In this document: positions 3,843 to 6,800 of the stretch, piece after piece
How the letters are laid out: every line of letters begins with the position of its first letter
Numbering within the stretch: position 1 is the stretch's first letter
Source of the DNA: Candidatus Cloacimonadota bacterium
Lineage (GTDB): Bacteria; Cloacimonadota; Cloacimonadia; JGIOTU-2; B8-G9
Length of the DNA stretch: 6,980 nucleotides
NCBI GenBank assembly: GCA_003647765.1
Contig: QMNM01000076.1
Location: 1-6,980, forward strand
Direction: 5' to 3'
Position numbers and translations under genes: made by a program
Notes under the pieces: generated by a model
Databases searched by the model: none
Told to the model about the DNA's origin: nothing
Seen by the model: the letters and a program-made list of their open reading frames with translations, nothing else

Positions 3843-3866
3843 AACGACATTGGAAGGTTGTTCTAC
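3843..3866. repeat. Palindromic repeat, copy A (degenerate)
   Basis: The sequence reads AACGACATTGGAAGGTTGTT followed by CTAC. It matches copy B (5405-5428) over the whole length apart from four positions in the palindrome, and keeps the CTAC tail. The arms are imperfect here: one mismatch and one G-T wobble. It sits 23 bases after the radical SAM stop, in the gap between convergent genes. It could fold as a weak hairpin in transcripts from either side, but no T-run follows, so I do not call it a terminator. Confidence 0.7.
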
Positions 3867-3977
3867 TCTGATTTTATCTGCGATATAACTCGCTTTTAGT
3901 ATGTAAAATTTAAACAAATTCATTGCATAGCTAATAACCGCTAATCCGAATTTATTTAGTTCTTTATGCTATTATAA

Positions 3978-4003: not shown

Positions 4004-5134
4004 TTAGCTCTTTAATAATTTTTCTGCAATAATATCCTTTTGCGTTTGCAATGTTCCCATTATGAATTCCATAGATTTAGCATCACGAAACATTCTTTCC
4101 AAAGGAAAATCCTTCATATATCCATATCCACCACGCACTTGAATGGCATTTATTGTTGTTTTAACAGCCACTTGTGCAGAGGTCAATTTAGCGATAGCAC
4201 ATTCTTTTCCAGTGGACTTAGATTCACCTTTCAAAGCTACTGCATAATATAAAGTGCTTCTTGCTCCTGTAATATCAGATTCCATTTGTGCTAACATCCA
4301 TTGTATTGCCTGAAATTCTGCAATTGTTTTACCAAACTGTCTCCTTTGCAAAGAGTATTCAATGCTCATATCCAAAGCAGATTGAGCAATTCCTATTGCT
4401 ACTGCTGAAATTGCAATCTTTCCCATATCTGAAATCTTTTTAAGATAAAGTGTCTGCTCCATATCCTTACCAAGAAGATTCTCTTTTGGAATTTGACATT
4501 TCTCAAAGCTAAGTTCACAACTCTTAATACCACGAAGTCCTAATGTATTCTCTTCTTTATCAAAGATAAATCCATCCATTCCTTTTTCTATGAGAAATAT
4601 CTTAATTTTGCTTTGCTCATCTTTTGCAAATACAAGAAATAAATCCGCAGTATTCCCACCAAGCATAAGCCGTTTTTTGCCATTCAAAATATACTTCTCA
4701 CCTTGTTGACTAGTGATTAAATCTAAATCTGTAATCAGTGATTCTGCATCTGGTTCCATCAAACTGATACCAGATATTTCCTTTCCTTGTGCTAATTTTG
4801 GCAAATGTTTCCTTTTCTGTTCCTCTGTTCCGAATTGAGAAATCGCATAAGAAACTACTAAATTATGAATAGCACATATAACAGCAGTTGAGGCACATAC
4901 TTTAGCAATCTCCTCAATAGCAATTACAATACTAAGTATATCCATCTCATTGCCAGAGAATTTTTCTGGAATCGCCAAACCGAGCAATCCAAGTTGGCTC
5001 ATTTTTTTAAGAACATTCTTTGGAAATTCTCGTTTTTCATCAATTTCTACAGCATAGTCCTTCAATTCCTTTTCTGCGAATTCTCGCGACATATCTCTAA
5101 TTAACTTTTGATCTTCTGATAAATTAAAATCCAT
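4004..5134 (-). CDS. Acyl-CoA dehydrogenase family protein lacking the usual catalytic glutamate
   Basis: This 376-residue protein has normal family length and fold: N-terminal helices (1 to about 120), a beta domain (about 121-230) and C-terminal helices (about 235-376). Typical members oxidise acyl-CoA to enoyl-CoA with FAD and pass electrons to ETF. Clear hallmarks are EEQKRKHLPKLAQGK (104-118), LGLRGIKSCELSFE (198-211), SLQRRQFGKTIAEFQ (261-275) and QVRGGYGY (332-339), then FPLERMFRDAK. Active-site positions are unusual. The EGT motif that carries the catalytic Glu in most members reads MGT here (M359, codon at 4060-4058), and the alternative Glu site of isovaleryl-CoA-type enzymes is G238. 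The TEPxAGSD loop is MEPDAESL (126-133), and the W-I-T-N flavin segment is L-M-L-G (156-159). The ATG is backed by GAGAGG (5145-5140), five bases away. The frame is intact, so this is not obvious decay. It may be an enzyme with altered chemistry or a non-catalytic subunit. hutI lies 290 bp upstream; no ETF genes are present. Confidence 0.9.
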   Translation of the reverse strand: MDFNLSEDQKLIRDMSREFAEKELKDYAVEIDEKREFPKNVLKKMSQLGLLGLAIPEKFSGNEMDILSIVIAIEEIAKVCASTAVICAIHNLVVSYAISQFGTEEQKRKHLPKLAQGKEISGISLMEPDAESLITDLDLITSQQGEKYILNGKKRLMLGGNTADLFLVFAKDEQSKIKIFLIEKGMDGFIFDKEENTLGLRGIKSCELSFEKCQIPKENLLGKDMEQTLYLKKISDMGKIAISAVAIGIAQSALDMSIEYSLQRRQFGKTIAEFQAIQWMLAQMESDITGARSTLYYAVALKGESKSTGKECAIAKLTSAQVAVKTTINAIQVRGGYGYMKDFPLERMFRDAKSMEFIMGTLQTQKDIIAEKLLKS

Positions 5135-5168
5135 ATTTTCCTCTCTATAATTTTATAATACTATCAAA

Positions 5169-5404: not shown

Positions 5405-5428
5405 AACGACCTTTCAAGGTCGTTCTAC
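5405..5428. repeat. Palindromic repeat, copy B (perfect arms), overlapping the hutI stop
   Basis: AACGACCTT-TC-AAGGTCGTT (5405-5424) has perfect 9-bp arms around two bases and is followed by CTAC (5425-5428). On the leftward strand the tail reads GTAG, and its TAG is the stop codon of hutI (5427-5425), so the repeat supplies the gene's termination codon. In hutI mRNA the hairpin would form directly after the stop, followed by UUUAAAUAAG. That is a weak U-tract, so it might act as a modest terminator or as an mRNA 3' stabiliser. Copies A and C share the sequence and orientation. Confidence 0.85.
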
Positions 5429-6717
5429 TCCTGAACTCTTGTTATCAATTCCAAATTATTATCATTTCTAAACACAGTTTTACCTTTTTTGATAACCATA
5501 TCTACGCAGTTGCTACCTAAATGATATGGTATGTACTGATAAGAAGGTATATTCATTATCACAATATCCGCTTGTTTTGTTTTTTCAATAGAGCCGATTT
5601 TATCTGCAAGTTCTAATGAATATGCACCATTTATTGTGGAAGCAGCAATTGCTTCTGCTGGAAGCATTCTCATTTGAATACAAGCTAAACTGATAATAAA
5701 TTGCATAGAATCACAATTGCAGGAGCCTGGATTGTAGTCAGTGGCTAATGTAACAGCAAGACCTGCGTTTATCATATCTCTTGCTCGAGCATAATGGTCT
5801 AATCCTAAACTGAAAGTCGTGCCTGGAAGTAAAATTGGGACAACACCTGCTCGTTTCATTGCTTGGATACCTTTATCTGATGTGGCACCGAGATGGTCAG
5901 CAGTGATGGCACCAATTTCTGCTGATAGCTCTGCTCCACCTGTTGGCTCTAATTCATCAGCATGCATTCTAATCCTGAAACCCATTTCCTTTGCCTTACC
6001 TAAAATGTATCTGGACTGATCTATGTTATAAACATACGATTCACAAAAAATATCACAATATTTAGACAAACCTTGTCTTTTCACTTCTGGTAGCATTTCA
6101 TCAACTAAAATACGGATATACTTATCTTTATTATCTTTATATTCTTCTGGGAATTCGTGAGCTCCTAAAAAAGTTGGCACAATATCCATATCTGACTTTT
6201 CATTCAATATTTCAATTGCCCTAAGCATTTTTATTTCGCTATCAGTGGAGAGACCGTAGCCACTTTTCGCTTCCATAGTTGTTGTGCCTTGCTGAAGCAT
6301 TTTATTTATCCGCTTTTCTGCCAATGTAACTAATTCTTCCAGAGATGCTTTCCTTACAGCATTTATACTTGAACGGATGCCACCACCAGATTGCGAAATC
6401 TCTTTATATGATTTGCCTTTGATTCTCATTTCAAGTTCATTTTCTCGTGTCTGAACAAATATTGGATGAGTATGCGGGTCAACAAAGCCAGGCATTACAA
6501 TTTTTCCATTAGCATCAATAATGTTCTCTGATGTATATTTATTTAGAATTTCATCTGTTTTCCCTACATCAACAATTATCGCTTTATCAATAGCAACTGC
6601 TCCATGTTCAATAATCCCCAAATGTTGCATTTCTTCACCAATTCTTGGCCCTTTTTTATCAGATTGCAAAGTCAATAGTTGTTTAGCATTCTTTATTATC
6701 AAAGATAGTTTAGTCAT
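5425..6717 (-). CDS. hutI: Imidazolonepropionase, histidine degradation
   Basis: HutI hydrolyses 4-imidazolone-5-propionate to N-formimino-L-glutamate, the third step of histidine breakdown, in the cytosol with a bound metal ion. The 430-residue protein is complete and very typical. It has PGFVDPHTHPIF with H82 and H84, GTTTMEAKSGYGL (144-156), FLGAHEFPEE (183-192), MHADELEPTGGAEL with H252 and E255 (251-264), ADHL with H275, LPGTTFSLG (297-305) and LATDYNPGSCN with D327 (324-334). The closing strand is IGSIEKTKQADIVI. I chose the ATG at 6717 because TGAGG (6730-6726) sits eight bases upstream; a longer frame exists only by using TTG at 6738, which has no such site and lies inside a repeat. 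The start is preceded by palindrome copy C and the stop lies in copy B. No hutH, hutU, hutG or ftcD is within the window, although more hut genes could lie beyond the right edge. Confidence 0.97.
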   Translation of the reverse strand: MTKLSLIIKNAKQLLTLQSDKKGPRIGEEMQHLGIIEHGAVAIDKAIIVDVGKTDEILNKYTSENIIDANGKIVMPGFVDPHTHPIFVQTRENELEMRIKGKSYKEISQSGGGIRSSINAVRKASLEELVTLAEKRINKMLQQGTTTMEAKSGYGLSTDSEIKMLRAIEILNEKSDMDIVPTFLGAHEFPEEYKDNKDKYIRILVDEMLPEVKRQGLSKYCDIFCESYVYNIDQSRYILGKAKEMGFRIRMHADELEPTGGAELSAEIGAITADHLGATSDKGIQAMKRAGVVPILLPGTTFSLGLDHYARARDMINAGLAVTLATDYNPGSCNCDSMQFIISLACIQMRMLPAEAIAASTINGAYSLELADKIGSIEKTKQADIVIMNIPSYQYIPYHLGSNCVDMVIKKGKTVFRNDNNLELITRVQE

Positions 6718-6736: not shown

Positions 6737-6760
6737 AAGGACCTTGGAAGGTCGTTTTAC
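6737..6760. repeat. Palindromic repeat, copy C, just upstream of hutI
   Basis: AAGGACCTT-GG-AAGGTCGTT is followed by TTAC. It has perfect 6-bp inner arms (GACCTT/AAGGTC) and one mismatch further out. It aligns with copy B in the same orientation, with a few substitutions. It begins seven bases from the hutI Shine-Dalgarno, so a hairpin in the 5' leader is possible if transcription starts upstream of it. On its right lies TTTTGCATA; the reverse complement TATGCAAAA lies directly left of copy A, which suggests the repeat unit is longer than the palindrome itself. Confidence 0.75.
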
Positions 6761-6800
6761 TTTTGCATAACTCATTATTTAATCGCGAACTAACTATATT

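Follow-up and report, generated by a model that had tools for sequence, protein, structure and literature searches.

An acyl-CoA dehydrogenase (ACAD) homologue of Candidatus Cloacimonadota, here called C, probably serves as a beta-like subunit without catalysis of its own in a heteromeric ACAD, whose catalytic subunit would be another ACAD encoded in this genome, E. E has lost exactly what C keeps and vice versa, and both therefore probably work as one mixed enzyme. The gene of C lies in the window, the stretch of 6,980 nucleotides analysed here, which is the whole contig C102 of a genome assembly of 360 contigs and 1.97 Mb (88.8 % complete).

Position and motif content of C

The FAD of each subunit in an ACAD tetramer lies between two sets of motifs: the subunit itself contributes the TEPxAGSD and ITN loops and the catalytic Glu, and a neighbouring subunit supplies RxxF and GGYGY from the opposite side. 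We assigned these motifs to cis and trans from knowledge of MCAD-type structures and a general statement in PMC11153573; a paper with a residue-level list of cis and trans FAD contacts was not found in the literature searched. The corresponding features of the window are as follows:

4004..5134, minus strand: C-type ACAD homologue of 376 aa, proposed non-catalytic beta-like subunit (ORF, Pfam, alignment, model)
5140..5146, minus strand: AGAGAGG, ribosome-binding-like, 5 bases 5' of the ATG of C (sequence)
4736..4768, minus strand: degenerate flavin/substrate loop, residues 123-133, ISLMEPDAESL versus LTEPxAGSD elsewhere (alignment)
4658..4669, minus strand: degenerate second flavin loop LMLG, residues 156-159, versus W/F-I-T-N elsewhere (alignment)
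4421..4423, minus strand: Gly238 at the base position of isovaleryl-CoA/long-chain enzymes (alignment)
4334..4345, minus strand: RRQF kept, residues 264-267, trans-acting FAD site (R and F in 5/5 C-type proteins)
4118..4141, minus strand: QVRGGYGY kept, residues 332-339, trans-acting FAD site (Q, GG, G and Y339 in 5/5 C-type proteins)
4058..4060, minus strand: Met359 (ATG) replacing the catalytic Glu (alignment)

The intact frame claimed in a preliminary description of this DNA, which did not give the strand, was confirmed as a 376-aa ORF on the minus strand. All three ACAD domains (PF02771, PF02770 and PF00441) were found above the Pfam cut-off at full length, and the AlphaFold model (pLDDT 88) has an intact ACAD fold with a Z-score of about 50 to solved ACADs, both of which place C in the ACAD superfamily. 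The only segment of the model with a pLDDT below 50, residues 132-136, is part of the degenerate loop. Compared with its orthologues, C shows changes at codon position 3 about twice as often as at position 2. As judged from these sequence comparisons, the gene is intact and under purifying selection.

The residue changes described earlier were all recovered. Both the sequence and the alignment show Met359, located within SMEFIMGTLQTQ, in place of the catalytic Glu, and the alignment puts Gly238 at the isovaleryl-CoA/long-chain (IVD/LCAD) base position. M126, E131 and L133 are present in the loop equivalent to TEPxAGSD, L156-M157-L158-G159 replaces W-I-T-N, and R264, QFG and GGYGY are retained. 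C thus lacks the Glu of a catalytic ACAD at both the EGT and the IVD/LCAD position (M359, G238), together with the flavin-ring loops TEPxAGSD and (W/F)ITN (MEPDAESL and LMLG; lost in all five C-type proteins). What it keeps are the ADP-side FAD motifs alone (RxxF and GGxGY, 5/5), as expected of the non-catalytic subunit of an alpha2beta2-like enzyme.

Since a change from GAA or GAG to ATG needs at least two base changes, a single base error cannot account for Met359. An isolated mutation or sequencing error in C was rejected, as the same losses are found in its orthologues. The suggestion that E356 serves as a substitute base did not hold: many ordinary relatives carry E356 in addition to the normal Glu, and it is therefore an inherited residue and not a replacement base. 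The alignment of C-type proteins revealed no new conserved acidic residue at any known base position.

Orthologues of C and their surroundings

Among 124 Cloacimonadota genomes scanned, the C type was seen solely in that of the window. Another small phylum (17 genomes) yielded four more orthologues, in genomes G124, G125, G132 and G131 (loci L032, L033, L145 and L146), with 53 %, 48 %, 56 % and 53 % identity to the window C, respectively; the one at L146 is truncated where its contig ends. In the tree, all five form a single clade (support 100/100) with long branches. The earlier caveat that close homologues might all carry EGT turned out the opposite way, as the visible orthologues likewise lack the Glu. 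It is kept in none of the four C-type proteins that reach this position (the fifth is cut off at that end), where M, L, L or F is found instead. Across the five proteins, the TEP Thr is M, V, N, M or I and the ITN Thr is L, L, L, V or V. Altogether, the aligned residues T126, G131, D133, T158 and N159 are kept in 0/5 and R264, F267, Q332, G335, G336, G338 and Y339 in 5/5.

A constant gene neighbourhood, also proposed as a check, was sought among the C-bearing loci and not found. C follows hutI in the window and an aldehyde dehydrogenase plus a thioredoxin-like gene in genomes G131 and G132, and stands in a tandem of four ACADs in G124 and G125. The aldehyde dehydrogenase, the thioredoxin-like protein and the C-type ACAD are encoded in identical order in both genomes (L145:1319-5648, L146:3569-7829). 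The genes of the window, including hutI and guanine deaminase, give no clear pointer to the substrate. EtfBA was found in all five C-bearing genomes, on contig C115 in that of the window. Three intergenic near-copies of GGTCGTTCTACTC are located in the window (3856-3868, 5418-5430 and 6750-6762; chance mean 0.02), two of which flank the ACAD gene; an exact copy was not found in the compared loci beyond the window's contig.

The tandems of genomes G124 and G125 have C placed between B and D, two members of a cluster of further ACADs designated A, B and D. Types A to E each form one clade in the tree, the deep order of which is unsure because of long branches. Both A-B-C-D tandems (L032:3655-8329, L033:1958-6525) belong to MAGs named Zod_Metabat and have a nitroreductase-like gene before them and one for an HdrC/TfrB-like iron-sulfur protein after them.

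Motif losses in the second ACAD, E

E (G000:C288:2509-3322) was the sole other ACAD detected in the window's genome (G000); A, B and D were not detected in this 88.8 % complete assembly. The E type is the ordinary ACAD throughout Cloacimonadota, and the E of the window's genome is 68 % identical to that of a relative from the same order. Its TEPEAGSD and WITNG are normal, but KKLHNSG replaces the KERHQFG of its relatives. Because the contig ends right after the RxxF site, GGYGY and the Glu lie beyond the visible sequence, and the partner-motif analysis in this genome covers E only up to RxxF. The last codons could carry a contig-end error, and the remainder of the gene was not found on other contigs.

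A partner in an alpha2beta2-like enzyme is expected to keep the loops and the Glu and to lose the reciprocal motifs, and this pattern is complete in three genomes. E has HEHEG and GGEAYT in G131, DQYYGG and REKGYT in G124, and EHHLEN in G125, each with normal flavin loops and an intact YEGT, whereas nine other E proteins of the second phylum keep both R and F. Among the four options of the preliminary description, a partner subunit now has good support from the losses in E that complement those in C, seen in the window's genome and three others. Another base has no support (no conserved acidic residue newly at a known base position), and inactive decay is disfavoured by conservation in five genomes.

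R and F are both retained in 47 of 55 E proteins; five have lost the two and three R alone. Both residues are lost in 4/4 E proteins from genomes with C versus 1/51 from genomes without it, where 47 keep both (Fisher p = 1.5e-5, relatedness ignored). In an E tree built with the motif columns removed, C occurs on three separate branches with motif loss in E on each, and a fourth loss is that of genome G137; with three independent events, the sign test has a floor of p = 0.25. E proteins with lost motifs have long branches. There are also exceptions: the E of G137 lost R and F, but no C was found in this genome, in which the contig with D ends inside D, on the side where G124 and G125 carry A, B and C. 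In the E proteins of genomes G008 (W, L199), G013 (G, L197) and G016 (W, L200), R is changed but F is still present, and C was likewise not found. Each of these three carries at least part of the A-B-D cluster, and their E may thus have another partner or be relaxed. Conversely, no E was found in G132, which carries C.

Based on residue patterns, conservation and co-occurrence, we infer that C pairs physically with E, putatively as a C2E2 mixed tetramer. Such a tetramer would contain two complete FAD/active sites, which E would provide and C would close, and the two sites of C would be empty; its electrons would go to the EtfBA encoded on contig C115.

A second proposed ACAD pair and known heteromeric enzymes

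A-B-D clusters were found at loci L036, L039, L043, L112, L113, L148, L149, L150 and L151. In several Cloacimonadota, as well as in WOR-3 and Neomarinimicrobiota records, the cluster is followed by EtfB, EtfA, HdrA-like and HdrC/D-like genes; phosphate butyryltransferases or butyrate kinase often precede it, and a MeaB GTPase and a methylmalonyl-CoA mutase-type gene are often present downstream. According to the alignment, A keeps RxxF and GGxGY and lost the flavin loops; it has a Glu in the aligned column in 5/9 proteins, yet without the EGT motif. B keeps the loops and EGT and lost R, F and Y339. The motifs are thus split between A and B in the same way as between C and E, and the two splits appear to be independent: the genes of A and B are adjacent, and their clades are separate from those of C and E. 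D is complete, with every cis and trans motif kept.

D lies next to C in L032 and L033 (G124 and G125) and is one of the ordinary ACADs nearest to it (45-48 % identity), which could indicate that C is non-catalytic but works with D, or is shared by several ACADs that it modulates. We regard this as unlikely, since the full motif set of D gives no sign of dependence on C, and the window's genome, G131 and G132, all of which carry C, yielded no D. Even less likely is that C works by itself as a homotetrameric flavoprotein, either with a different base or in a different reaction (as a reductase or in binding, for example). The fold of C is intact in the AlphaFold model and G132 carries C with no other ACAD detected in its incomplete MAG; however, the flavin-ring loops have been lost and differ between orthologues, the trans motifs are kept although they would be useless to an empty site, and the C-specific conserved acids (D26, D172 and an acidic residue at 273) lie away from the known base positions. 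A decaying, functionless duplicate, to which the lost catalytic residues and long branches might point, is very improbable in view of frames that are intact in all five genomes, from two phyla, the third-position excess of changes, the invariant RxxF and GGxGY and the matching losses in E. C is best read, from these sequence data, as a real, conserved, non-catalytic subunit.

The mixed C/E enzyme has its closest functional counterpart in the alpha2beta2 steroid ACADs ChsE4-ChsE5 (FadE26-FadE27), ChsE1-ChsE2 (FadE28-FadE29), IpdE1-IpdE2 and Scd1AB. In these enzymes, alpha is the subunit with the Glu and binds the isoalloxazine, and the ADP-ribose part is bound by beta (PMC11153573), with two active sites and two FADs per tetramer (PMC8399759). 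FAD is divided in the steroid ACADs, including those of Mycobacterium, as it appears to be in C/E. The steroid enzymes were described from actinobacteria and proteobacteria, whereas C/E is hosted by Cloacimonadota and a second uncultured phylum. In addition, steroid ACAD genes are adjacent or fused in the cases described, whereas C and E are unlinked, lying on different contigs in G000, G124, G125 and G131 and, in G124 and G125, between different flanking genes. C is also closer to short-chain ACADs than to steroid ACADs. By sequence it falls outside the steroid families: it reached 66.5 bits with the IpdE2 model (cut-off 450), and no FadE26/27 model was among its curated-model matches. The 50 entries listed by the structure search included no steroid-type heteromer subunit. 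By analogy, the best reading is that C/E works like the alpha2beta2 steroid ACADs, but evolved separately and from unlinked genes.

Butyryl-CoA dehydrogenase and other short-chain ACADs (5ol2, 4l1f, 1buc, 8sgs) resemble C in fold (Z about 50) and length, have 35-39 % identity to it and share RxxFG and GGYGY. In contrast to C, which lacks the Glu, TEPxAGSD and ITN, they form homotetramers in which every subunit has a complete active site. The best NCBIfam model of C by score, over its full length, is the dehydrogenase subunit AcrC of acryloyl-CoA reductase (NF042972), but the score of 364 bits stays below the cut-off of 640 and the catalytic features of AcrC are absent from C.

A search of the literature yielded no paper on heteromeric ACADs in Cloacimonadota. 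We lean towards the view that obligate ACAD heteromers with half of their sites active evolved two or more times in the ETF/Hdr-bearing Cloacimonadota and the second phylum (the A/B operon and the unlinked C/E), and that, on three or more separate branches, the subunit without the Glu took the host's ordinary ACAD as its partner, after which the FAD-clamping motifs of the partner were lost. If true, heteromeric ACADs would extend beyond steroid degraders to lineages with ETF/Hdr genes, and the change from a homotetramer with four active sites to a mixed enzyme with two would be a natural experiment repeated across lineages that can be followed in the sequences. Automatic annotation labels such non-catalytic ACAD subunits as dehydrogenases, and the FAD motifs kept versus lost provide a simple rule to recognise them.
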